Shown: in pieces, positions 469-14,326 of the stretch | Numbering within the stretch: position 1 is the first letter of the stretch | How the letters are laid out: every line of letters starts with the position of its first letter | Assembly (NCBI GenBank): GCA_021786705.1 | Contig: JAJYMV010000086.1 | Coordinates: 1-35,925 of the forward strand | DNA from: a bacterium | GTDB taxonomy: Bacteria > Vulcanimicrobiota > Vulcanimicrobiia > Vulcanimicrobiales > Vulcanimicrobiaceae | Length of the DNA stretch: 35,925 nt | Direction: 5' to 3' | Program-made: the position numbers and the translations under genes | Notes under the pieces: model-generated | What the model was told of the DNA's origin: nothing | Database searches by the model: none | The model's input: the letters and a program-made list of their open reading frames with translations, nothing else

Positions 469-1007
469 GCGTTATCGCGATGTCGCGAGCGGTACCACCA
501 AGCGAAGAGCCCTAAGAGCAGCGAATCGAGGATCGCCTGCTCGATCGCATCGTGAAAATGCAACGCGCTCCATGCGAAGGGAGAGCCGGTCGCCTGCATG
601 ACCGCCCAGAAAATCGCGTTCCGAACGAAGGTCGCCACGAATGCGAGCGCGGCGTAGAGCAACGGCGAGTTGCTGAAAAAACGCTGCGCGAGGAGCGCGA
701 TCAACACCGCTGCTGCCAGCGTAGCGAGCATCCACGATGCGCCGGTCGTCCCCGACAGCAGGTCTTCGCAGAGCCCGGCGATGAGGCCGAGAAACGCCGC
801 GCGCTGCGGGCCGAGCCGCACCGAATACCAGACGACGACGAGCAGGACGGCACTCGGCGGAACGTCTTTCCAACGAAGGAGCGAGAGCGAGCTCGCTTGG
901 AAGGCGAGCGCGAGCAATACCGCAATCGTCACGTGCCACCACGCGGGGTATCGGTAGGGAGTCTCGGGCTCCCTAACGTGCAACGACGAGGAGTCGATCC
1001 AGGGCAT
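465..1007 (-). CDS. mreD: Rod shape-determining protein MreD
   Basis: A small integral membrane protein of the elongasome (MreBCD-RodA-PBP2). The 180-residue product is strongly hydrophobic, with about five or six membrane segments starting near residue 24, and charged residues only in short loops. MreD proteins are usually 160-180 residues and poorly conserved, so the call rests on size, topology and position between mreC and mrdA. The assigned ATG lies 35 bases inside mreC and has no clear ribosome-binding site; a later start is possible, but the first membrane segment begins soon after, which limits how far it can move. The stop overlaps the mrdA start (ATGA). Confidence 0.85.
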   Translation of the reverse strand: MPWIDSSSLHVREPETPYRYPAWWHVTIAVLLALAFQASSLSLLRWKDVPPSAVLLVVVWYSVRLGPQRAAFLGLIAGLCEDLLSGTTGASWMLATLAAAVLIALLAQRFFSNSPLLYAALAFVATFVRNAIFWAVMQATGSPFAWSALHFHDAIEQAILDSLLLGLFAWWYRSRHRDNA

Positions 1008-1773
1008 TCAAGCGTACCGATGGTTTCAGAATTGCGGTTTGATAGAGACTGGAATCGTTACGGTCGATCTTCACGATGCGACCGATCGGAATCCCGGCGC
1101 GGAACGTGCGCCCGTTTCCGGTTACGACGACCTCTCCGACGCGAAGCGGCGCGTCGAGCGTGACGTAGTCGAGGCGAATGCTCTGCAGATTTCCGCGTGC
1201 GATGCCCCACCAGCGCCCATCGCGCACGACTGCAGGGATACGACTCGAGAAATCGGTGGCGAGCAGCACGGTTGCCTCGAGCGGGGTGACCTGCGTGACG
1301 TGACCGACGACGCCTCCCGGGGCGAGTACGCCGTCGTCGCGGCGAACGCCGGCGAGCGAGCCGCGGTCGATCGTGATGCTGCGCGTCGCCCCCTCGGGCG
1401 GAAAGCCGATCACGCGAGCCTCGATTCCGTTAGGATGTCGGTCGCGCAGCCGCGCGATACCGGCGATCCCGAGCGCGTCGGCGAGCTCTTGGTGCAGGCG
1501 TGCGTTGCGTTCGAGCAGCGCCTGGTTCGACGCGACGAGCGCCGCGTTGCGCGCGTTCAATGACGGGAACGAGAGCACGGCGTTCACGCTCCCGCCGACC
1601 GCGTTCCCGATCCCGGTGACGAGGTTCTCGGAGCCGGCGATGAGATAGGAGGCGGTGACGGCGATCGGGCTGGGTTCGCCGGCGCGCTGCGCTCGAACCT
1701 GAAGGATGGCGAGAACCGCCGCCGCGATGACGATCGCGAGCAAAACGAGCAGCTTGCGCTCGTCAGTGCGCAC
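973..1773 (-). CDS. mreC: Rod shape-determining protein MreC
   Basis: A bitopic membrane protein that scaffolds the cell-elongation machinery outside the inner membrane. It has a basic N-terminus, one membrane span within roughly residues 7-28, a helical linker (SNQALLERNARLHQEL region), and two beta-rich domains with the MreC-type pattern of GSLAGVRRDDGV and VVGHVTQVTPLEATVLLATD. The GTG at 1773 is preferred over the in-frame ATG at 1812, because GAGGG sits 8 bases ahead of it and it overlaps maf by 11 bases rather than 50. That start gives 266 residues, a normal length. It is co-oriented with maf upstream and mreD downstream. No mreB is present in the window. Confidence 0.9.
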   Translation of the reverse strand: MRTDERKLLVLLAIVIAAAVLAILQVRAQRAGEPSPIAVTASYLIAGSENLVTGIGNAVGGSVNAVLSFPSLNARNAALVASNQALLERNARLHQELADALGIAGIARLRDRHPNGIEARVIGFPPEGATRSITIDRGSLAGVRRDDGVLAPGGVVGHVTQVTPLEATVLLATDFSSRIPAVVRDGRWWGIARGNLQSIRLDYVTLDAPLRVGEVVVTGNGRTFRAGIPIGRIVKIDRNDSSLYQTAILKPSVRLNALDRLLVVAR

Positions 1774-2371
1774 GCGCCGTGCCCTCTTTGCCGGGACGAT
1801 AGCCGTGGGCACGAAGCGTGCGAATCACGCGCCCGAGCGGGAGGCCCATCACGGTGTAAAAATCGCCCTCGACGCCGTCGACCAAAGCCGCCGCACGCCC
1901 CTGAATGCCGTATCCGCCGGCCTTATCGAAGGGTTCGCCGCTCGCGATATAGTCGTCGATCTCATCGTCGGCGAGTTCGTGAAAACGCACGCGCGTCGAT
2001 TCGCAAAATTCGATCGCGGGACCCCCGCCGGGGAACGCGATCGCGACGGCGGTGTGCACCAAGTGCTCGCGGCCGGAGAGCGAGGAGAGCATCGCGCGCG
2101 CCTCGCTCGCGTCGCTGGGTTTATTGAGCGCGGTACCGTCGCGATCGACGACGGTATCTGCGGCGAGGATCGGGCGATCGATCCCGGCGCCGATCTTCGT
2201 TACGACATCGCGAAGTTTTTCGCGCGCGTGGCGTTGCGCGAGTTCGCGCGGCGTCAGCGCGGGGTTATCGGGTTCGCCGTACTCGCTGGGAACGACATCG
2301 ACGTGTACGCCGAGCGAGCGCAGCAATTCGAGGCGTCGGGGCGAGGCGCTGGCGAGATAGATGCGGGTCAT
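1763..2371 (-). CDS. maf: Maf-family nucleoside triphosphate pyrophosphatase
   Basis: A cytosolic house-cleaning enzyme that hydrolyses non-canonical or modified NTPs (dTTP, UTP or methylated pyrimidines, depending on subtype) to NMP and pyrophosphate. The 202-residue product opens with the family signature LASASPRRLELL (about 6-17), and contains ADTVVDRDG with the conserved Asp of the active site and the KPSDASEARAMLSSLSGREH stretch that corresponds to the family KPxdxxeA..mL..lsG motif. YGIQGRAAALV near 150 is also typical. Its ATG overlaps the nadD stop by 4 bases. A maf-mreC-mreD order is common in bacteria. Substrate subtype (YhdE or YceF) cannot be fixed by eye. Confidence 0.93.
   Translation of the reverse strand: MTRIYLASASPRRLELLRSLGVHVDVVPSEYGEPDNPALTPRELAQRHAREKLRDVVTKIGAGIDRPILAADTVVDRDGTALNKPSDASEARAMLSSLSGREHLVHTAVAIAFPGGGPAIEFCESTRVRFHELADDEIDDYIASGEPFDKAGGYGIQGRAAALVDGVEGDFYTVMGLPLGRVIRTLRAHGYRPGKEGTARAH
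1782..1786 (-). promoter_or_regulatory. Ribosome-binding site that decides the mreC start
   Basis: On the minus strand the bases read GAGGG, 8 bases before the GTG at 1773. The upstream ATG at 1812 has nothing comparable, so this site argues for the shorter MreC. The site lies inside the 3' end of maf, implying reinitiation or coupled translation. Confidence 0.55.
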
Positions 2372-2982
2372 CCTTCGCGTTCCGGCTGGCCGTAGAGGCG
2401 ATGCGAGCGAATGTATTGCCAGACCGCTTCGGGGACGAGGTAGCGGACGCTGCGTCCCTGCGCGAGGAGGGTGCGAATCAACGTCGCCGATTCGGGAAGC
2501 GCGGGGAGATTGAGCGTTCCGACGCGCTGCCGCAGGTTCGTGGGCAGCGCGGCGATCACGCGGGCGAGTGCGTCGTCGGGGACGCCCGCTCGCGGCGCGA
2601 TCACGAAACGTTCGAGCCCGGCGAGCACTTCGCCGAGCCGCACCCAGTTCGCGTTGACCAGCGAATCGGCGCCGATGATAAACGTAAACGAGGCGTCGGG
2701 ATAGCGCTCGCGCAGTCGGGGCAGCAGATCGGCCGTGTATCCGGTCGCTTCGGGTTGGAGATCGCTATCGTCGAGCGCGAAACCGCGATTCGTCGCAATC
2801 GATCCGAGAATCATCGCGCAGCGGTGTTGGGCGTCGGCGATCGCACCCGCCCGATAGTGTTGGTGCCTAGTGGGAAGAAAGAGCACGCGGTCGAGCCCTT
2901 CGCTCAAGCGGGCCGATTCCGCGACGAAGAGATGCGCGTTATGGATGGGGTCGAAGGTTCCGCCGAATATACCGAGTTTCAT
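2368..2982 (-). CDS. nadD: Nicotinate-nucleotide adenylyltransferase
   Basis: Transfers AMP from ATP to nicotinate mononucleotide to form deamido-NAD in NAD synthesis. The 204-residue protein starts with the nucleotidyltransferase signature GIFGGTFDPIHNAHL (residues 4-18), which contains the HxxH-type (here HNAH) catalytic motif. FIIGADSLVN and the C-terminal SATLIR and GRSVRYLVPEAVWQYI are NadD-specific. It overlaps obgE upstream and maf downstream by 4 bases each. The obg-nadD order is widespread; the ribosome silencing factor gene rsfS that often follows nadD is absent here and is replaced by maf. Confidence 0.95.
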   Translation of the reverse strand: MKLGIFGGTFDPIHNAHLFVAESARLSEGLDRVLFLPTRHQHYRAGAIADAQHRCAMILGSIATNRGFALDDSDLQPEATGYTADLLPRLRERYPDASFTFIIGADSLVNANWVRLGEVLAGLERFVIAPRAGVPDDALARVIAALPTNLRQRVGTLNLPALPESATLIRTLLAQGRSVRYLVPEAVWQYIRSHRLYGQPEREG

Positions 2983-4244
2983 GAATAGGTGAATTCGTAC
3001 GTCCCGATCCGCACGCTATCGCCTTCGCGAACCCCGCGCGCCTGTAATTCTTTCTCCACGCCCATCTTCACCAGCGCGCGTTCGAAACGCGCGAGCGCTT
3101 CGTCGGAATCGAAATTCGTACGTTCGGCGAGTTGCTCGACGCGCTCCCCCGTGACGACGAAGGTGCCGTCGTCTTCGCGGCTGACGGTGAACGTCTCGCG
3201 CGTTGGCAGCGAGATCTGCGCTGGCGTAACGTCGAGCGCCGCGGGAGGCGGGGCGAGCGAGAGCGCGCGCCACATCGCGGCGAGTAATTCGGGGACGCCT
3301 TGATGCGTCGCGGCGCTGATGCCCATCGTTTCGGGATCGCGTTCGCGCAGCTCGGTAAAGCGCTCGCGCGCTTCGGGAAGATCGAGCTTGCTCACCGCGA
3401 CGATCGTCGGCTTCTCTAAAAGCAAGGGATTCCAGGCGCGTAACTCCGCTTCGATCGTCGATCGATCGCTCGCCATCTCTTCGAGGGATTTTGCGCCGTC
3501 GAGAAGATGGACGAGGACGCGCGTGCGTTCGACGTGGCGTAGAAAACGGTCGCCGAGCCCGGCGCCTTCGTGCGCGCCTTCGATGAGGCCGGGAACGTCG
3601 ACGGCGACGAAGGATCGCTCCTCGTCGAGGCGCACCACTCCGAGCTGCGGCTCGATCGTCGTGAACGGATAATCGGCGATCTTCGGACGCGCTGCGGTGA
3701 TCACCGAGAGCAGGGTCGATTTTCCCGCGTTCGGTACGCCGACGATGCCGACGTCGGCGAGAAGCTTGAGTTCGAGGCGAAGGACGCATTCCTCGCCGGC
3801 TTCACCGCGAATCGCGTAATCGGGTGCTTGCCGCGCCGCCGTCGCAAAATGTTGGTTGCCGAGCCCGCCTTTTCCGCCGCGCGCGACGAGCACGCGCTGA
3901 CCGGGCTGCGCGAGATCGGCGAGGAGCGCTTCGCTCTGCGTCTCGGTGCGTTTGTAGACGAGCGTTCCGACGGGGACGGCGATGACGAGGTCCTCACCGG
4001 CGCGCCCGGACTTGTTCGAGGTTCCCCCAGCCTTGCCGGCTTCGGCGGCGAACTTCCGCTTGAAACGAAATTCTACGAGCGTGTTGAGTTCGGGATCGGC
4101 GAGGAGATAGAGGCTGCCGCCATGCCCGCCGTCACCGCCTGCCGGGCCGCCTTTGGGCACGTATTTCTCGCGCCGCCACGCGACGATGCCGTCGCCGCCG
4201 CGGCCGGCGGAGATTTCGATAGTGGCTTCGTCGATAAATTGCAC
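2979..4244 (-). CDS. obgE: GTPase Obg (CgtA)
   Basis: A ribosome-associated GTPase acting in 50S assembly and stress signalling. The three Obg domains are all visible in 421 residues: an N-terminal glycine-rich OBG fold (about 1-158, with GRGGDGIVAWRREKYVPKGG), a central G domain, and a C-terminal OCT domain (about 340-421). In the G domain, P-loop GVPNAGKST and switch II DVPGLIEGA are intact. The G4 motif reads SKLD instead of NKxD, so the first Asn is Ser; this is a substitution to note, and Lys and Asp are kept. A 100-base gap with a hairpin separates it from rpmA; it overlaps nadD by 4 bases. Confidence 0.96.
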   Translation of the reverse strand: MQFIDEATIEISAGRGGDGIVAWRREKYVPKGGPAGGDGGHGGSLYLLADPELNTLVEFRFKRKFAAEAGKAGGTSNKSGRAGEDLVIAVPVGTLVYKRTETQSEALLADLAQPGQRVLVARGGKGGLGNQHFATAARQAPDYAIRGEAGEECVLRLELKLLADVGIVGVPNAGKSTLLSVITAARPKIADYPFTTIEPQLGVVRLDEERSFVAVDVPGLIEGAHEGAGLGDRFLRHVERTRVLVHLLDGAKSLEEMASDRSTIEAELRAWNPLLLEKPTIVAVSKLDLPEARERFTELRERDPETMGISAATHQGVPELLAAMWRALSLAPPPAALDVTPAQISLPTRETFTVSREDDGTFVVTGERVEQLAERTNFDSDEALARFERALVKMGVEKELQARGVREGDSVRIGTYEFTYS

Positions 4245-4288
4245 GTACGTGGTCTATTCCGCAGGCGAGTGAGGGAGCCTTGAAAGAG

Positions 4289-4318
4289 CGACGGGGCGCC
4301 GCATGCGGCACCCCGTCG
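4289..4318 (-). terminator. GC-rich hairpin between rpmA and obgE, possible attenuator
   Basis: An inverted repeat with eight base pairs (CGACGGGG against CCCCGTCG), one C-A mismatch, then a further four or five pairs around a small loop. On the minus strand it is followed by CTCTTTC, which is only a weak T-tract. It lies in the 100-base gap after the rpmA stop. It could terminate part of the transcripts, so that L27 is made in excess over Obg and the downstream enzymes. It might instead be an mRNA-stabilising structure. Confidence 0.45.
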
Positions 4319-4344
4319 AGAAAGCGAGCGTTTCCGCCCCGCGG

Positions 4345-4626
4345 TTATGCGGAGAGCGGTTTGATATCGACGTGCTGCTTATTCCGGCGCGTCGCGAACT
4401 GCACGGTCCCCTCGGTCAGCGCGAAGAGCGTGTGGTCGCGGCCGATGCCGACGTTCTCACCGGGGTAGAACTTCGTGCCGCGCTGGCGAACGATGATGTT
4501 CCCCGCGAGCACGTGCTGCCCACCGAAGCGCTTGACGCCGAGGCGTTGCGAATTGGAGTCCCGGCCGTTGCGGGTAGAGCCCGCGCCCTTCTTGGACGCG
4601 AAAAGCTGCAGATCGAATACGAACAT
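4345..4626 (-). CDS. rpmA: 50S ribosomal protein L27 with cleavable N-terminal extension
   Basis: L27 reaches the peptidyl-transferase centre of the 50S subunit. The 93-residue protein has the canonical [20 protein letters not shown] stretch from residue 11 and [23 protein letters not shown]. Before it lies [10 protein letters not shown], which matches the extension of S. aureus L27 (LNLQFF, cut just before ASKKG by the protease Prp). Cutting after Phe9 would expose ASKKG, the mature N-terminus. It heads the minus-strand operon. The usual partners rplU and prp are not adjacent: the upstream neighbour is a divergent copper-protein gene. The promoter ends only 9 bases before the ATG, and no ribosome-binding site is seen, so a leaderless message is likely. 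Confidence 0.96.
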
Positions 4627-4635
4627 AGCCGCAAG

Positions 4636-4664
4636 AGTATATCGTAGATGGGCTGCTGGGTCAA
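4636..4664 (-). promoter_or_regulatory. Strong sigma-70-type promoter for rpmA, nearly leaderless
   Basis: On the minus strand TTGACC (4664-4659) and TATACT (4641-4636) are separated by exactly 17 bases. The -10 box ends 9 bases before the rpmA ATG at 4626, so transcription would start only about 3-5 bases upstream of the start codon. No Shine-Dalgarno sequence fits in between. This predicts a leaderless or almost leaderless rpmA mRNA. The match to both hexamers and the ideal spacer make this the clearest promoter in the window. Confidence 0.72.
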
Positions 4665-4694
4665 TCTACGGGCGGAGGCGGGGTTTTGTAAGAA

Positions 4695-4721
4695 GGAAAC
4701 ACCTTGCAGCGAACGGACGTC
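4695..4721 (+). promoter_or_regulatory. Possible ECF-sigma-type promoter for the first copper protein gene
   Basis: GGAAAC (4695-4700) and CGTC (4718-4721) are 17 bases apart, the general pattern of extracytoplasmic-function sigma promoters (GGAAC at -35, CGTC at -10). It lies 80 bases before the ATG at 4801. The motif is short and could occur by chance. The rest of the 174-base gap between rpmA and this gene shows only the rpmA promoter and the AAAGGAG at 4781-4787. Confidence 0.28.
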
Positions 4722-4800
4722 GGCTCGCTCGCGTTCCATTGGGGAGGCGCCGCGATGGTGCCGAAGGGACGAACTCGTTGAAAGGAGTCCAACCACCCTC

Positions 4801-5208
4801 ATGCCATTCAAGCCCAAATTTTTGCTGCTTGCCGCGGCGACGATCGCCGGTGCGCTCGCCGCTACGCTTCACGCCGGGGCCGCCCCCGCGACGAAGATCA
4901 CGTCGACGATCGCCGCGCAGGTGGCGGAGGCTCGAACGATCGACGTTACCTCGTACCGTTATTCCTTCGAACCAGAAACGATCGTCGTCCATGAAGGTGA
5001 GCCGGTCACGTTGGTTCTCACCAGCAGAGATGTCACTCACGGTATCGCCGATGCGGATCTCGGCATTGCAAACACCGTCATTTTCAAAGGCAAAAAAAGC
5101 ACCGTCACTTTCACGCCGAAAAAACTCGGCACGTTCAAAGTGCACTGTTCGGTCTTCTGCGGCATCGGTCACGGCGACATGATGCTGACGGTGAAAGTCA
5201 TCAAATAA
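4801..5208 (+). CDS. Secreted CuA-type cupredoxin, first copy
   Basis: A 135-residue exported copper protein. The signal peptide is about residues 1-28 (FLLLAAATIAGALAATLHAGA); there is no further membrane segment. The copper ligands fit a binuclear CuA site: His80, Cys116, Cys120, His124 and Met127, with the C-x3-C-x3-H-x2-M spacing found in cytochrome oxidase subunit II and nitrous oxide reductase. HCSVFCGIGHGDM resembles the CuA loop of ba3-type oxidases. No oxidase subunit I is nearby, so this looks like a free electron carrier or a copper-delivery protein rather than a true CoxB. The reading frame is open back to 4648, but the ATG at 4801 gives the signal peptide and has AAAGGAG 13 bases upstream. 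It converges on the cytochrome gene across a terminator. Confidence 0.85.
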   Translation: MPFKPKFLLLAAATIAGALAATLHAGAAPATKITSTIAAQVAEARTIDVTSYRYSFEPETIVVHEGEPVTLVLTSRDVTHGIADADLGIANTVIFKGKKSTVTFTPKKLGTFKVHCSVFCGIGHGDMMLTVKVIK

Positions 5209-5213
5209 GTAAG

Positions 5214-5250
5214 AAAGAGCGGGCCCCCGATTTCGGGGGCCCGCTCTTTT
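5214..5250. terminator. Perfect bidirectional rho-independent terminator
   Basis: AAAGAGCGGGCCCCCG (5214-5229) pairs with its exact complement at 5234-5249 across a four-base loop (ATTT). It has T-rich sequence on its right (CTCTTTT) and A-rich sequence on its left (AAGAAAGA), so it can stop transcripts from both sides. It ends the copper-protein gene on the plus strand (stop at 5208) and the cytochrome-porin gene on the minus strand (stop at 5275). Confidence 0.93.
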
Positions 5251-5274
5251 CTCGCAACGCTTACCGTTGAGATT

Positions 5275-6450
5275 TTAGTGGTTCTTCCACCACGGCCCGC
5301 CCCACAGGAGCTGATAGCTCCAGACCGGCGTGCCGCCGACCGTCACGGCGTCTTCGATCGTGAACACGACGTTCGGTTCGATATTCACGGCAAGGTCGCC
5401 GATGTAGTAGTTGTTGACTCCGCCCATGCCGTCGTTGGTGTTGTCGTAGCGGAGGTCGAGGTTCGCTTTCGGAAGCACGTTATAGATTGCTTCGAGCGAG
5501 TAGGCATGGCTCTGCGAGGAGATCGCCGGCGTGAGATCCTGCGGGTTGTTATCGTTGCCTTGCAGGTCGACGCCGAGGAGCATATATTTCGGCCCGGTGT
5601 AGGCGACGAGTGCGCCGTAACGCGAGAACGTGTCCTTCGCTCCCGAAGGTAACGGCGTCGTGCCGCCTTCGAAGGCGACGCCGCCCGAGAAGCGCGTCTC
5701 CGGCCACATGTACATCAGCGAGCCGACGACCGATTGTCCGACCGCACCGGCGACCGAACTATCGGTATCGCTGTCGTAGGCTGTCTCGAGCGGGCCTTCG
5801 TTCGTCATGTAGGCGACGTTGCCGATGAGCCCCTTCGAGCCGATCTGGGTGTACGAAGCGCCCCAGCGATTGTCGCCGACGCCGACGCCGTTATTCCCGA
5901 CGCCGAGAGCGGCAAACGAATAGCCCGAGAGCGAGAGATTCATCGCGACCCACGGTGCGAAGAACGGGGTCGGGAACATACCGACCTGCAGGCTGCCGTT
6001 GCCGTGGCTCAGACCGTTATAGGCGATCCAGCCTTGGTCGATCGATGCGGCGGGCATGCCGCCTTCAACGATCGGGACCGAGGCGTAGTACGTGAAGTCT
6101 TTCCCGAGATAACCGGCGCTCAGCAAGTCGATGACGCCGACCATGACTTTATTGCCGAAGGTCGGATCGGGAACGCTCGATTTATTGAGCGTGAATTCCA
6201 GCGCAACGGGAAGGTGCTTGTTGTTCTCCATCTGCGCGTGCGCGTCGAGGACGCGCGCGAAGTTCGTCGCCAGCACGTAACGGCCGGTGGCGTTGAGATT
6301 GGGAACCGAGGTGTGGCACATCTGGCAGCTGACGCCGCCCTGTGCGTTGGCGAAGAGGGGAATTGCGCTCGCCGGACGCGCCGAACCGAGGATGGCGAAG
6401 GCCATCCCCAGAGCGACGATCAGTCCGGTGCGACCGAGTTTTGCGTTCAT
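5275..6450 (-). CDS. Monoheme c-type cytochrome fused to a predicted outer-membrane beta-barrel (Cyc2-like)
   Basis: A 391-residue exported protein. The signal peptide ends near residue 29 (RPASA). Directly after it comes one c-type heme site, CQMCH (42-46), in the context HTSVPNLNATGRYVL. This CxxCH-x3-PxLNxxGR arrangement is what I recall of the heme domain of Cyc2-type porin-cytochromes that oxidise iron at the cell surface. The remaining 330 residues are rich in Gly, Asn, aromatic and alternating hydrophobic residues, with no alpha-helical membrane span, as expected for an outer-membrane barrel (for example LDLRYDNTNDGMGGVNNYYIG). It is shorter than most Cyc2 proteins (about 400-550). The ATG overlaps the upstream cupredoxin stop by 4 bases, so the two are coupled. 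The heme and the export signal are seen; barrel and role are inferred. Confidence 0.65.
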   Translation of the reverse strand: MNAKLGRTGLIVALGMAFAILGSARPASAIPLFANAQGGVSCQMCHTSVPNLNATGRYVLATNFARVLDAHAQMENNKHLPVALEFTLNKSSVPDPTFGNKVMVGVIDLLSAGYLGKDFTYYASVPIVEGGMPAASIDQGWIAYNGLSHGNGSLQVGMFPTPFFAPWVAMNLSLSGYSFAALGVGNNGVGVGDNRWGASYTQIGSKGLIGNVAYMTNEGPLETAYDSDTDSSVAGAVGQSVVGSLMYMWPETRFSGGVAFEGGTTPLPSGAKDTFSRYGALVAYTGPKYMLLGVDLQGNDNNPQDLTPAISSQSHAYSLEAIYNVLPKANLDLRYDNTNDGMGGVNNYYIGDLAVNIEPNVVFTIEDAVTVGGTPVWSYQLLWGGPWWKNH

Positions 6451-6833
6451 TGTTTCACTATTACCGTAAGCTTCATGTTCGCGTGATTGAGACCGCAGAA
6501 AATCGCGCAGGGCAGAACGTAGGTGCCGGCTTTCGTGGGGGTGACGGCGACATTCACAGCCTTGCCCGGTTGGATGCGGGTGAGCGGGATGTGGAGCCGG
6601 TTAGAAACGAGGCCGTGCACTCCTCCTGACGAGGTCAGGTGCAGGGTGGTCGTTTTGCCGACGTGCATCACGATCGTGCTGGGGGTGAACTTGCCGTCCG
6701 AGCTGGCGACGATATTCGTCGTCCCGGCGGCAGCGACTTCGGTGGTGACGCCGGCTGCGCCGGCGGGGCGGGCTCCGGCGCCGAGGGCGACGAGAGCGAG
6801 CGTTGCGATAAAGGTGGTAAGCGTGCGTTTCAT
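6447..6833 (-). CDS. Secreted CuA-type cupredoxin, second copy
   Basis: A 128-residue exported copper protein, paralogous to the one at 4801. The signal peptide is about residues 1-27 (FIATLALVALGAGARPAGA). The ligands are His73, Cys109, Cys113, His117 and Met120: the same spacing as in the first copy, with 36 residues between the first His and first Cys in both. Sequence outside the copper loop is well diverged (LPCAIFCGLNHANM against HCSVFCGIGHGDM). A strong AGGAGG lies 5 bases before the ATG. The stop overlaps the start of the cytochrome-porin gene, making the pair a two-gene operon divergent from fabF. It probably carries electrons in the periplasm to or from that cytochrome, but a copper-chaperone role cannot be excluded. 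Confidence 0.85.
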   Translation of the reverse strand: MKRTLTTFIATLALVALGAGARPAGAAGVTTEVAAAGTTNIVASSDGKFTPSTIVMHVGKTTTLHLTSSGGVHGLVSNRLHIPLTRIQPGKAVNVAVTPTKAGTYVLPCAIFCGLNHANMKLTVIVKQ

Positions 6834-6838
6834 GGGTT

Positions 6839-6844
6839 CCTCCT
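6839..6844 (-). promoter_or_regulatory. Consensus Shine-Dalgarno of the cupredoxin-cytochrome operon
   Basis: AGGAGG on the minus strand, 5 bases before the ATG at 6833. It is the strongest ribosome-binding site seen in this window, where most genes rely on overlap with their upstream neighbour. It predicts high translation of the second cupredoxin and, by coupling, of the cytochrome-porin. I could not identify a convincing promoter in the 102-base divergent gap to fabF. Confidence 0.7.
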
Positions 6845-6935
6845 GTGAGATGAATGCTACGCGCCGCTTACGAAGACGCGATGAGACCTCCGGGAACGGA
6901 TGGGGAAGAAGTAGAGAAGCGGAGAGGGGTCCTCG

Positions 6936-8207
6936 ATGGGGCGACCGTACCTACCAACCGCTTTGGAGAAAAAAAGAGTAGTCGTCACCGGCCTCGGAGC
7001 CGTGACGCCGTTAGGGAACACCCGTGACGAGTTCTGGCGTCGACTGATCGCCGGCGATTCGGGCGTCGGCCCGATCACCGCGTTCGATGCGAGCGCCTTT
7101 ACGACGCGCATCGCCGCCGAAGTCCGCGATTTCGATAGCGACGCATTGCTCGGAAAAAAGGAAGCGCGCCGGATGGATCGCTTCACGCAGTTTGCCGTGG
7201 TCGCCGCGAACGAGGCGATCGCCGACGCAGCCCTGCCGAGCGACGAAGCGACGAAGGAACGCATCGGCGCGGTGATGGGGAGCGGCATCGGCGGCATCAT
7301 CACGTTCTGGTTGGAATCGGAGAAAGCGGCGCTCGCCGGCACCTGGTCGCGTTGCTCGCCCTTCTTTATTCCAATGTTGATGGCGAACGCCGGCCCGGCG
7401 CACATCTCGCTGCGCCACGGTTTTCGCGGCCAGATATTCTCGGTCGCGAGTGCCTGCGCGAGTGCGAACGATGCGATGGCGATCGCCTTCCGGAGTGTAG
7501 CGAACGGCGAAGCGATCGCGATGGTGACCGGCGGCAGCGAAGCCTGCGTCTCGCCGTTGGCGATCGGCGGCTTCTGTTCGATGAAGGCGATGTCGACGCG
7601 GAACGACGAGCCGACGAAAGCGTCGCGTCCCTTCGATAAAGATCGCGATGGCTTCGTTTTGGGCGAAGGCTCGGGCGTATTGATCTTCGAGGAATACGAA
7701 CACGCGCGGGCGCGCGACGCGCATATCTATTGCGAGGTGCTCGGCTACGGTGAATCGGCCGATGCCTACAATATCGTCGCCGTCGATCCCGACGGCCGCG
7801 GCGTGAAGCTGGCCTTCGAACGAGCGTTCGCGCAGGCCGGAATCACGCGCGACGAGGTCGATTATATCAACGCTCATGGAACCGCGACCCCGATCGGTGA
7901 CCCCGCGGAATCGAAGGCGATCGAGGAGAGCTTCGGCGATCATGCGACCGCGATCGCGGTGAGTTCGACGAAATCGATGCACGGGCACGCGCTCGGCGCC
8001 GCGGGAGGCCTCGAAGGCGTCGCGACGGTGCTCGCCGTCGCCAACGATCTCGTCCCGCCGACGATCAATTACGAGCATCCCGACCCGGAGTGTCGGCTCG
8101 ATTACGTTCCCAACGTCGCGCGCAAAATGACGGTCAACGTCGCGTTCTCCAACTCGTTCGGTTTCGGCGGCCACAACAGCGTGTTGGTCTTCGGCAAATT
8201 ACGGTAA
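6936..8207 (+). CDS. fabF: 3-oxoacyl-[acyl-carrier-protein] synthase II
   Basis: Condenses malonyl-ACP with acyl-ACP in the elongation steps of fatty acid synthesis. At 423 residues it is slightly longer than usual (about 410) because of a short N-terminal tail before VVVTGLGAVTPLGN. The catalytic triad is intact: Cys in VASACASANDAM, His in INAHGTATPIGD, and His in STKSMHGHALGAAGG, with the Lys just before it. The ATG has GGAGAGGGG a few bases upstream; a TTG at 6963 would be the alternative. It starts a four-gene operon with rnc 7 bases downstream. The acpP gene that commonly precedes fabF-rnc is missing here. Confidence 0.95.
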   Translation: MGRPYLPTALEKKRVVVTGLGAVTPLGNTRDEFWRRLIAGDSGVGPITAFDASAFTTRIAAEVRDFDSDALLGKKEARRMDRFTQFAVVAANEAIADAALPSDEATKERIGAVMGSGIGGIITFWLESEKAALAGTWSRCSPFFIPMLMANAGPAHISLRHGFRGQIFSVASACASANDAMAIAFRSVANGEAIAMVTGGSEACVSPLAIGGFCSMKAMSTRNDEPTKASRPFDKDRDGFVLGEGSGVLIFEEYEHARARDAHIYCEVLGYGESADAYNIVAVDPDGRGVKLAFERAFAQAGITRDEVDYINAHGTATPIGDPAESKAIEESFGDHATAIAVSSTKSMHGHALGAAGGLEGVATVLAVANDLVPPTINYEHPDPECRLDYVPNVARKMTVNVAFSNSFGFGGHNSVLVFGKLR

Positions 8208-8214
8208 GAGAGCG

Positions 8215-8931
8215 ATGGCCGGGGAGGCGCGGCGTCGCCGCGTGCGTGCGTGGTTGCGCTTGGCGGGGGTTCGCACGGTGGGCGAGCTCGATCGTATCGA
8301 ACTCGCACTGCGGCACGGATCCTTCGCGCGCGAACGCGGCGGCGAAAGCAACGAACGCCTAGAGTTTCTCGGCGATTCGGTGCTCGGATTCATCGTCGCA
8401 ACCTGGCTCTACGAAACCTTTCCCACGCTCACCGAAGGCGAATTGACGCTGCGCAAAGCGCGCATCGTCAAGGATGAAGCGCTCGCGGTCACCGCGGCGC
8501 GATTGGGCTTCGACGACGGCATCGAGTTGGGCGTCGGCATGCGTAACGCCGGCGGTACGGAGAACGCCTCGATCCTCGCCAATACCTTCGAAGCCTTCGT
8601 CGCAGCGCTCTATCTCCAGTTCGGTATTGAGGCCGCACGCAAATTCGTGCTCGAACAGCACGTCGCACGGGTCGATCTCGATCCGCTCGCGCTCGTCGAT
8701 CCGAAGACGCGCCTCCAGCAGTACACGCAGGCGCACGCGCTGGGCTTGCCTTCGTACGACGACCGTGGGGAAGGGACGCCGCAGCACCCCGCCTTCACCT
8801 CGACGGTTTGCATCGATGGGCGCCCGCTGGGAAGTGGGAGCGGCGCGTCGAAACGGGCAGCCCAGCAAGCGGCTGCAATAGCCGCGCTTCGCACGCTTGA
8901 AAGCGCTTCGGGCGCGCAAGGAATTTCGTGA
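8215..8931 (+). CDS. rnc: Ribonuclease III
   Basis: Cuts double-stranded RNA, including rRNA precursors. The 238-residue protein has the RNase III signature NERLEFLGDSVLGF (46-59) and a C-terminal double-stranded RNA-binding domain from about residue 160 (DPKTRLQQY, then a final KRAAQQAAAIAAL helix). The second metal-site motif reads LANTFEAF, with Glu126 kept but Asn123 in the place of E. coli Asp114. To my knowledge this Asn occurs in other active bacterial enzymes, so I do not call it inactive. The fabF-rnc-smc order is a classic conserved cluster. The stop overlaps the smc start by 4 bases. Confidence 0.95.
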   Translation: MAGEARRRRVRAWLRLAGVRTVGELDRIELALRHGSFARERGGESNERLEFLGDSVLGFIVATWLYETFPTLTEGELTLRKARIVKDEALAVTAARLGFDDGIELGVGMRNAGGTENASILANTFEAFVAALYLQFGIEAARKFVLEQHVARVDLDPLALVDPKTRLQQYTQAHALGLPSYDDRGEGTPQHPAFTSTVCIDGRPLGSGSGASKRAAQQAAAIAALRTLESASGAQGIS

Positions 8932-12491: not shown

Positions 12492-14058
12492 ACGCTCGCG
12501 TGAAGCCGCGCTCTTTTCCGTCTCCGACAAGCACGGCGTCGAAGATGTCGCGCGCGCGTTGCACGAACGCGGCGTCGCCATTTATGCAACCGGAGGCACG
12601 CGTACCTATCTCGTCGATCGCGGCGTTCCCGCGCACGACGTCGAATCGCTCACCGGCTTTCCGGCACTCTTCGGCGGCCGGGTCAAGACGCTTCACCCGA
12701 AGGTCTTCGGCGCGATCCTGTACGATCGCGGAAACGAAGAGCACCGCGCGCAGATCGAACAATATGCGATGCCGAGCATCGTCGCCGTCGTCGTCAATCT
12801 CTATCCCTTCGAGGCGACCGTCGCGCGCGAAGGCACGACGCTCGACGAAGCGATCGAACAGATCGATATCGGCGGGGTTGCGCTCTTACGTGCGGCTGCC
12901 AAAAATGCCGCGCACGTTGCCGTGCTGACCGATCCATCGCAATACCCGAATTATCTCGCCGCACTCGAAAACGGCGAGGTTCCCAACGGATTGCGGCGGC
13001 GGCTTGCGGTCGCGGCATTCGAACGCACCGCTTCGTACGATATCGCGATCTCGCACTATCTCGCGACGAAGGGCGAACTCTTGCCTTCGGATCTTCCGGG
13101 CGCGCTCACGCTCGCGCTGCCGCTCGCGCAGCGGTTGCGCTACGGCACCAACCCGCAGGAGCGTGCGGCATTTTACCTCGGGCGCGAGGACCGCGTTCCC
13201 GAACAGCTCCACGGGAAAGCGCTCTCGTACAACAATTTGCTCGATCTCGACGCGACGCTCCGCCTGCTTTCGCGCGCCGCTCTCGGTGCCGAATACGGCA
13301 GCGAACGCGAACGATTCGTGCGTGCGGCGGTGGTGAAGCATACCGTTCCGTGCGGCGTCGCGCAGCGTTCGACGGTGGGAAAGGCCGTCCGCGATGCGAT
13401 TGCGGCCGATCCGGTCTCGGCGTTCGGCGGAATCGTGGCCACCGATACGCGCATCGATGCCGTAGCGGCGCGCGCGCTCGCCGAAGTCTTTCTCGAGATC
13501 GTCGCCGCGCCGGACTACGATGATGGCGCGCTCGAGATTTTGCGGAAGAAGAAAAACCTGCGGATCATGCGTTTCACGCCCGAACTCCCCGACGAACTCG
13601 CCGCGGAGTTGCGCGTGCGTTCGGCGCTCGGCGGCGTGCTCGCCGAGGAGAACGATCCCAACGCGGAGCCCGAACGCTGGAGCGTGGTGAGCAAACGCGC
13701 TCCCGACGATCGCGAATGGCACGATCTCGCATTCGCGTGGGATATCGTGCGCCACGTCAAGAGCAACGGCATCGTCATCGTCAAGGGCGGCACGACGCGA
13801 GGCATCTGCGCGGGGCAGACCAATCGCGTGAGCGCGGTGCAAATCGCCGCACATCGTGCCGGCGAGCTCGCGGTCGGCGGATCGTGCGCGAGCGACGGAT
13901 TTTTCCCGTTCGCCGATGGGCTTGAAGCGGCAATCGCGGCCGGCGTGACCGCGGTCATCGCTCCGGGTGGTAGCGTTCGCGATGCTGAAGTGATCGCCGC
14001 CGCCGACCGCGCCGGCATCGCGCTCGTCTTCTCGAGTTACCGCTACTTCTTGCACTAA
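12484..14058 (+). CDS. purH: Bifunctional AICAR formyltransferase / IMP cyclohydrolase
   Basis: Performs the last two steps of purine synthesis: formylation of AICAR and ring closure to IMP. The 524-residue length is normal. The N-terminal cyclohydrolase (MGS-like) domain has SVSDKHGV, YATGGTRTYL and GGRVKTLHPKVFGAIL. The C-terminal transformylase domain has YGTNPQERAAFY, VKHTVPCGVA with the catalytic Lys-His pair, and SAFGGIVA. The start is TTG at 12484, overlapping smc by 8 bases; no better start is available without losing the conserved SVSDK. The link of purH to smc is unusual and may only reflect an operon of convenience. The stop is followed by the repeat array. Confidence 0.96.
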   Translation: MPERSREAALFSVSDKHGVEDVARALHERGVAIYATGGTRTYLVDRGVPAHDVESLTGFPALFGGRVKTLHPKVFGAILYDRGNEEHRAQIEQYAMPSIVAVVVNLYPFEATVAREGTTLDEAIEQIDIGGVALLRAAAKNAAHVAVLTDPSQYPNYLAALENGEVPNGLRRRLAVAAFERTASYDIAISHYLATKGELLPSDLPGALTLALPLAQRLRYGTNPQERAAFYLGREDRVPEQLHGKALSYNNLLDLDATLRLLSRAALGAEYGSERERFVRAAVVKHTVPCGVAQRSTVGKAVRDAIAADPVSAFGGIVATDTRIDAVAARALAEVFLEIVAAPDYDDGALEILRKKKNLRIMRFTPELPDELAAELRVRSALGGVLAEENDPNAEPERWSVVSKRAPDDREWHDLAFAWDIVRHVKSNGIVIVKGGTTRGICAGQTNRVSAVQIAAHRAGELAVGGSCASDGFFPFADGLEAAIAAGVTAVIAPGGSVRDAEVIAAADRAGIALVFSSYRYFLH

Positions 14059-14070
14059 GAAGCGTCGACG

Positions 14071-14109
14071 GCCCTGATACGGCTGCTTCGCAGCCTACTC
14101 GGGCTGACA
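14071..14109 (-). repeat. Diverged inverted copy of the long structured repeat
   Basis: Read on the minus strand this begins TGTCAGCCCGAGTAG, against TGTCACGCCGAGTAG in the plus-strand array, and then follows the same plan. The outer stem is GCCC with GGGC (CGCC with GGCG in the array). The inner stem is GGCTGC with GCAGCC around a GAA loop (GCCGCT with AGCGGC around GCA in the array). Both stems therefore differ in sequence but keep their pairing. It starts 12 bases after the purH stop. It lacks a T-tract, so it is not a standard terminator. Confidence 0.75.
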
Positions 14110-14127
14110 ATGCAGCGAGCGCGATTT

Positions 14128-14326
14128 TGTCACGCCGAGTAGCCGCTCTGTCACGCCGAGTAGCCGCTGCAAGCGGCGTATCGAGGCGCCGCCGCTCTGT
14201 CACGCCGAGTAGCCGCTCTGTCACGCCGAGTAGCCGCTCTGTCACGCCGAGTAGCCGCTCTGTCACGCCGAGTAGCGCGGCCTTGTCACGCCGAGTAGCC
14301 GCTGCAAGCGGCGTATCGAGGCGCCG
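14128..14326 (+). repeat. Tandem array of seven TGTCACGCCGAGTAG repeats
   Basis: The core TGTCACGCCGAGTAG occurs seven times, starting at 14128, 14149, 14198, 14219, 14240, 14261 and 14284. Five copies are short, about 21 bases (23 for the sixth), and carry only the left half of the hairpin. Copies two and seven are long (43 bases: 14149-14191 and 14284-14326). They add the right half, GCAAGCGGCGTATCGAGGCG, so that GCCGCT pairs with AGCGGC and CGCC with GGCG. No transposase or phage gene is near. The array ends 12 bases before the HNH gene. Period and composition are unlike a CRISPR, since there are no unique spacers. Confidence 0.92.

Follow-up and report, generated by a model that had tools for sequence, protein, structure and literature searches.

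A predicted electron-transfer module of stand-alone CuA-type cupredoxins and a Cyc2-like porin-cytochrome in Eremiobacterota

Organization of the locus

Three genes lie side by side in the window, a stretch of 35,925 nucleotides from the genome (89% complete) of an uncultured Eremiobacterota bacterium of acid soil and mine drainage. P0001 (positions 4801 to 5208, forward strand) and P0003 (6447 to 6833, reverse strand) encode predicted exported single-domain CuA-type cupredoxins of 135 and 128 amino acids, respectively, and P0002 (5275 to 6450, reverse strand) a predicted monoheme outer-membrane porin-cytochrome of 391 amino acids. P0003 and P0002 overlap by 4 bp (ATGA, 6447 to 6450), and therefore form one transcription unit. 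P0001 is convergent to this unit, from which it is separated by a perfect 16-bp GC-rich hairpin with a U tract (5214 to 5249), probably a two-way terminator; the region from 5200 to 5270 folds with a minimum free energy of -41.1 kcal/mol (z -6.8). The original prediction described two cupredoxins flanking a porin-cytochrome. This is correct as to position, but P0003 and P0002 are one unit and P0001 stands apart, beyond the hairpin.

The module occupies a conserved slot between fabF and rpmA-obg (973 to 8931 in the window), which we compared with the same slot on contig C33 of genome G029 (locus L109). There the slot holds one cupredoxin and a barrel of the first of three clades described below, and in the window it holds P0003, P0001 and P0002, the latter a second-clade barrel. 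P0003 groups in our tree with the partners of first-clade barrels (support 89/96). P0001 is nearest to the cupredoxin that partners a second-clade barrel in genome G035, where a cupredoxin of the P0001 branch stands directly upstream of a P0002-type barrel. A second-clade barrel may have come into the slot together with its cupredoxin, replacing the resident barrel. Two members of the genus, G005 and G006, lack the module; their case is uninformative, since the flanking fabF is missing as well. Elsewhere in the window, downstream of purH, an open reading frame with repeated VTERLLG units (13955 to 14266) looks like a short intergenic tandem repeat.

Stand-alone CuA-type cupredoxins

To our knowledge, CuA is otherwise nearly confined to terminal oxidases and N2O reductase, where it forms a fixed domain. 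P0001 and P0003 both contain its five side-chain ligands (H, C-x3-C, H, M) in full: His80 and C116-x3-C120-x3-H124-x2-M127 in the former, His73 and C109-x3-C113-x3-H117-x2-M120 in the latter. The first cysteine lies 36 residues from the histidine in each, which is the identical spacing first noticed at this locus. Export and the missing membrane anchor were judged by inspection of the N-termini, which agrees with the earlier description of both proteins as secreted and anchorless.

Both sequences pass the Pfam COX2 cut-off (4e-8 for P0001, 7.3e-5 for P0003) and match Cupredoxin_1 (8.6e-11 and 4e-9). Their nearest solved relative by sequence is the CuA domain of the Thermus ba3 oxidase, which is also the closest structure match of the predicted P0003 fold, superposing at 1.2-1.3 Å. 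We gathered 81 distinct cupredoxin relatives without requiring CuA ligands, and 80 of them keep all five, so that the site is under selection; within the genus, P0003 and P0002 evolve under purifying selection, with dN/dS of about 0.05-0.17 across the two genes. A chance occurrence of the motif was rejected on the strength of the Pfam matches, the ligand conservation and the P0003 fold match. P0001 and P0003 would bind copper as CuA.

Could these proteins be the CoxB subunits of a broken oxidase operon? We rejected this explanation because the stand-alone cupredoxins form one clade, separate from all local CoxB proteins (support 100/100). Neither protein has a membrane anchor or a coxA neighbor, and their scores (47.5 and 34.2 bits for P0001 and P0003) are far below the CoxB equivalog cut-off of 147.7 bits. 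With the CuA domain of Thermus thermophilus ba3 subunit II (PDB 2CUA) they share the cupredoxin fold and all five side-chain ligands. However, they are stand-alone, exported and devoid of a membrane anchor, and their His-Cys spacing of 36 exceeds that of the aligned Thermus sequence by one residue. PmoD, in which a CuA site with other ligands forms at the homodimer interface, shows that CuA is possible outside oxidases (PMC6189053). P0001 and P0003 resemble PmoD/AmoD in having a CuA site that belongs neither to an oxidase nor to N2O reductase, but display the canonical single-domain ligand set. A search of plasmids for relatives of P0003 returned none at 1e-6.

A monoheme barrel distantly related to Cyc2

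P0002 has a signal peptide, assigned by inspection, followed by a single CxxCH (C42-QM-C45-H46) in the context AIPLFANAQGGVSCQMCHTSVPNLNATGR. Its heme segment reads AIPLFANAQGG-CQMCH-TSV-PNL-NATGR, which bears out the claim of one CxxCH just past the signal peptide in a PxLNxxGR context. An AlphaFold2 model built on an alignment of 46 relatives (pLDDT 88.5) places a short helical heme segment in front of a 16-strand barrel spanning residues 82-385, within the 14 to 18 strands with an N-terminal heme plug anticipated for this protein, and on this basis we rejected a non-barrel periplasmic protein. Foldseek matches the model to general porins of the PDB (E 3e-12), including OprP, which is the published structural match of Cyc2 (PMC8406198). 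Pfam and NCBIfam searches with P0002 gave no match, hence no unrelated periplasmic family. The barrel-family profile, run against PDB sequences, retrieved cytochromes c only; the matches lie in the C-terminal domain that some members have fused to them, outside the barrel.

The CxxCH heme site is invariant in all 47 aligned barrels, as are, among others, A29, P31, A34, C42, C45, H46, P50, G56, W141, D300 and R334; no histidine or methionine besides H46, as a candidate second axial ligand of the heme, is invariant in this alignment. P0002 is expected to carry a covalent heme, and its predicted place is the cell surface.

Cyc2 is defined by the motif AXPXFAR[QK][TY] upstream of the heme site (PMC8406198). 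P0002 has half of it: AIPLFANAQGG keeps AxPxFA and lacks R[QK][TY], and the same is true of its relatives, which read AMPPFAQAYG or AMPIFAKAYG. Other Cyc2 features are present, namely the signal peptide and single N-terminal CxxCH (42-46), the PXL four residues past CxxCH (CH-TSV-PNL) and, in the model, a 16-strand outer-membrane barrel in a protein of 391 amino acids, for a minimum of 365. The profile of the P0002 family aligns with that of six motif-true plasmid barrel-cytochromes over 260 columns (hhalign, 98.4%, E 5.7e-15), and P0002 as a single sequence aligns with this Cyc2 profile over residues 7-60 alone. We built a tree of 102 barrels, in which these six plasmid proteins represent Cyc2; they form their own branch, and the P0002 family appears separate from them, with a long branch. 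Because R[QK][TY] is missing, although AxPxFA and PxL are there, P0002 is a homologue of Cyc2 and not a member by the published definition. The resemblance to Cyc2 that was originally proposed holds for profile homology, PxL and barrel, but not for the strict motif: P0002 is, by sequence, a distant, Cyc2-like protein. With the Cyc2 of Acidithiobacillus, Mariprofundus and Gallionellaceae it shares the signal peptide, single N-terminal CxxCH, PxL, 16-strand barrel and profile homology, and should function like them; it differs by its apparently separate Eremiobacterota clade and by its putative relay partner, which is a CuA cupredoxin where Cyc2 has rusticyanin, HiPIP or cytochrome c.

Linkage of cupredoxin, barrel and oxidase genes

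A CuA cupredoxin adjoins the porin-cytochrome in 36 of 60 relatives, belonging to three families of the class. The cupredoxin gene is nearly always directly upstream of the barrel gene, on the same strand and at 6-80 bp, the two being 0.8-3.4 kb apart in 3 of the 36. Within the genus, the 7 genomes with complete contigs have the three genes next to one another, and an eighth genome has cupredoxin and barrel on a contig that ends there. The genes thus travel together in relatives, as was anticipated. A non-barrel fold, an unrelated periplasmic family and scattered genes, the three outcomes named beforehand as arguing against the module, were all looked for, and none of them refuted it.

In 14 of the 36 genomes, a gene for a CoxB-like protein (ba3-type subunit II) is found 0.6-4 kb from the cupredoxin-barrel pair, and wherever the region was read a COX1 gene stands beside it. 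The linked oxidase is of the B-family, ba3-like; it accompanies the pair in about half of the pair-bearing genomes outside the window's genus, and at two loci (L092 and L094) the genes form an operon in one direction, coxB-coxA-cupredoxin-barrel. Of 39 non-redundant CuA-linked barrels, 18 have a COX1 of the linked type within 7 kb, versus 2 of 46 others, a count in which some regions were picked for an extra cupredoxin; regions chosen by the barrel only (L134-L212) give 3 of 15. Given roughly three COX1 genes in a genome of 2.5 Mb, we estimate chance proximity at around 1%.

In the window's genus, the ba3 genes do not adjoin the module. The remark that no oxidase genes are nearby stands for the window's contig, which has no coxA or other oxidase gene, the three COX1 genes of the genome being on other contigs; it does not extend to the many relatives with a linked ba3-type oxidase. 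The genome's own ba3-like oxidase is on contig C145, and its subunit II is sister to the module-adjacent one in G035 (support 98/97). Overall, the original observation is confirmed and its electron-transfer interpretation supported, with adjustments concerning strict Cyc2 membership and ba3 linkage.

Other genes recur in these neighborhoods. In some genera, pairs of radical SAM/SPASM genes, and additional COX1-like genes, occur beside a cupredoxin or a cupredoxin-barrel pair (L106, L107, L129, L130). Genes for universal stress proteins, for a response regulator and for a histidine kinase repeatedly neighbor the module (L091-L110), which suggests shared regulation.

A possible swap between cupredoxin and fused cytochrome c

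The barrels fall into three clades: CuA-linked barrels (AMPPFAQAYG...), barrels with a C-terminal cytochrome c domain (FANGQGG...), and barrels with a fused cytochrome c located beside a multicopper oxidase gene (FPGMTRYGMM...). The fused C-terminal domain is recognized by Pfam as cytochrome c. P0002 belongs to the second clade (support 100) but is without the fused domain, as is its relative in G035, and these are the two second-clade members that have cupredoxin genes alongside.

Among 62 non-redundant monoheme barrels, 41 have a CuA neighbor and 21 do not, whereas this neighbor is present for one of 38 fused-cytochrome-c barrels and absent for 37 (Fisher P-value 4e-11, uncorrected for relatedness). 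Such a distribution is expected if cupredoxin and fused cytochrome c share one job. A kinship-aware swap test found 5 independent pairs, 1 of them informative, and was not significant; the swap is suggestive only, because independent changes are few. At this level, the data suggest that the CuA protein replaces the fused cytochrome c domain.

Heme-barrel-cytochrome c paralogues of P0002 are found at L118 (8189-9826), L119 (7260-9110), L012, L013 and L134-L149, and in the window's genus too. Third-clade barrels stand beside a CopA/CueO-like multicopper oxidase at L114 (7677-9101), L119, L123 and L150-L167, and such a barrel and oxidase are a possible metal-oxidising pair.

Host and distribution

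The barrel family is present in 53 of 60 relatives, each with between one and five copies; the five genomes from elsewhere in the phylum gave no match. In a scan of 84,980 species, all named matches were Candidatus Eremiobacterota / Vulcanimicrobiota (WPS-2) and the others metagenome-assembled genomes labeled 'bacterium'. The matches include MAG 14 and MAG 15, both from the acid mine drainage of Cabin Branch. For MAG 15, an earlier study describes a Cyc2-like gene and mentions no copper partner (PMC8357290).

Of 41 genomes, 39 encode Omp85 and 40 encode cytochrome c assembly, so that an outer membrane and c-type heme are expected, and a monoderm host was rejected. Neither set of genes was found in the host's own incomplete genome, which we attribute to assembly gaps. 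We found no RuBisCO gene in ten genomes of the genus; if the electron path proposed below holds, the module would therefore be a supplementary source of energy for a heterotroph.

A candidate path from the cell surface to oxygen

The open reading frames, ligand sets, predicted folds, Cyc2 homology, operon and ba3 linkage, and the outer-membrane and cytochrome c assembly genes of relatives make an inward electron conduit the reading that we consider fairly likely. P0002 would form a 16-strand barrel in the outer membrane, its periplasm-proximal N-terminal segment carrying a covalent heme. A soluble reductant, most likely Fe(II) at low pH, would enter the pore and reduce this heme. From there, a soluble CuA cupredoxin of the periplasm (P0003 and/or P0001) would receive the electron and in turn directly reduce the CuA subunit of a ba3-type oxidase, whose reduction of O2 would contribute to the proton-motive force. 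Where a barrel of the family has a fused C-terminal cytochrome c, that domain would take over the relay. As to the narrower proposal that in Eremiobacterota a free CuA protein is a diffusible shuttle from an outer-membrane monoheme conduit to ba3, replacing a barrel-fused cytochrome c, we consider the chances even. Several facts weigh against the conduit, among them the 21 monoheme barrels with no CuA neighbor, which include the six plasmid Cyc2 proteins and the most Cyc2-like barrel of the host genome (L115); the incomplete Cyc2 motif of P0002; and the distance between ba3 genes and module in the window's genus.

The closest known system is the rus operon of Acidithiobacillus (cyc2-cyc1-cup-coxBACD-rus), which clusters Cyc2, rusticyanin and an oxidase (PMC10654088). 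Both systems combine an outer-membrane monoheme porin, a periplasmic copper protein and a heme-copper oxidase in a gene cluster. However, rusticyanin and AcoP are type 1 copper proteins (PMC4059628), whereas the Eremiobacterota proteins have two-cysteine CuA ligands; the linked oxidase is ba3-like instead of aa3, the gene order differs, and the Eremiobacterota operons examined contain no cyc1-like cytochrome c gene. The literature that we found on Cyc2 with cupredoxins, ba3 or CuA mentions rusticyanin, AcoP, sulfocyanin and multicopper proteins only. A CuA partner for a Cyc2-type or other outer-membrane cytochrome, which had been thought new, is absent from this literature; subscription journals and preprints lay mostly outside the search, so that priority is unproven.

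Is Fe(II) the donor? By analogy with Cyc2, it probably is. The same conduit could instead serve Mn(II), Cu(I), reduced humics or another diffusible reductant, a possibility that we hold to be clearly the less probable one. Homology to Cyc2 is weak past the heme segment, and the third clade, beside its multicopper oxidase, indicates that clades may serve different metals. Yet the heme segment, strand number and context of copper protein and oxidase parallel the rus operon (PMC10654088), and the source sites of near relatives include iron-rich acid mine drainage (compare PMC8357290).

The barrel might also be a copper-permeable porin, with cupredoxins acting as assembly factors that deliver copper, not electrons, to the CuA of ba3. 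The linkage to ba3 genes would fit, as would the fact that the soluble cupredoxins bear exactly the ligand set of the oxidase's CuA, and in A. ferrooxidans oxidase activity has the support of a cupredoxin, AcoP (PMC4059628). We regard this as improbable, since the CxxCH conserved in every aligned barrel has no role in copper import and a fused cytochrome c in the cupredoxin's place in sister barrels points to an electron relay. Two-cysteine binuclear copper sites are typical of electron transfer and not of copper chaperones. Outward flow, to extracellular acceptors or for disposal of periplasmic reductants, is more improbable still: single-heme barrels could in principle work in both directions, but CuA and ba3 oxidase have high potentials and belong to the O2 end of a chain, and the linked oxidase genes make CuA and ba3 the likely electron sink.

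If the inward conduit is real, a whole class of bacteria, common in acidic and oligotrophic soils and in mine drainage, would count among the candidate oxidisers of iron (or metal) for which the proposed chain is complete, from the outer membrane as far as oxygen, and CuA would gain a role as a free shuttle beside its known one as a fixed domain. The three natural versions of the barrel, with CuA partner, fused cytochrome c or multicopper oxidase neighbor, make the acceptor of a Cyc2-type heme testable with small expressible proteins.

Further Cyc2-type barrels

Barrel-cytochromes are also encoded on plasmids of Caballeronia, Methylocystis, Acidiphilium and others; in some of them the Cyc2 motif is exact (ALPAFARQTG-CVACH-VSF-PEL; AVPSFARQTG-CATCH-TAF-PEL). 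Those at L213, L214 and L217-L220, from Caballeronia, Methylocystis, Acidithiobacillus ferrooxidans, Polymorphobacter and Acidiphilium, are annotated merely as 'cytochrome C' or 'hypothetical protein'; they are accompanied by c-type cytochrome genes and, in Caballeronia, by a HiPIP gene too. On contig C155 of the host genome, L115 (9319-11042) encodes a monoheme barrel that is closer to Cyc2 (AIPIFAREYGVTCEKCH); a YceI-family gene follows, and there is no cupredoxin. A similar pair of barrel and YceI-family genes is found in genome G017 (L127, 8270-9370).
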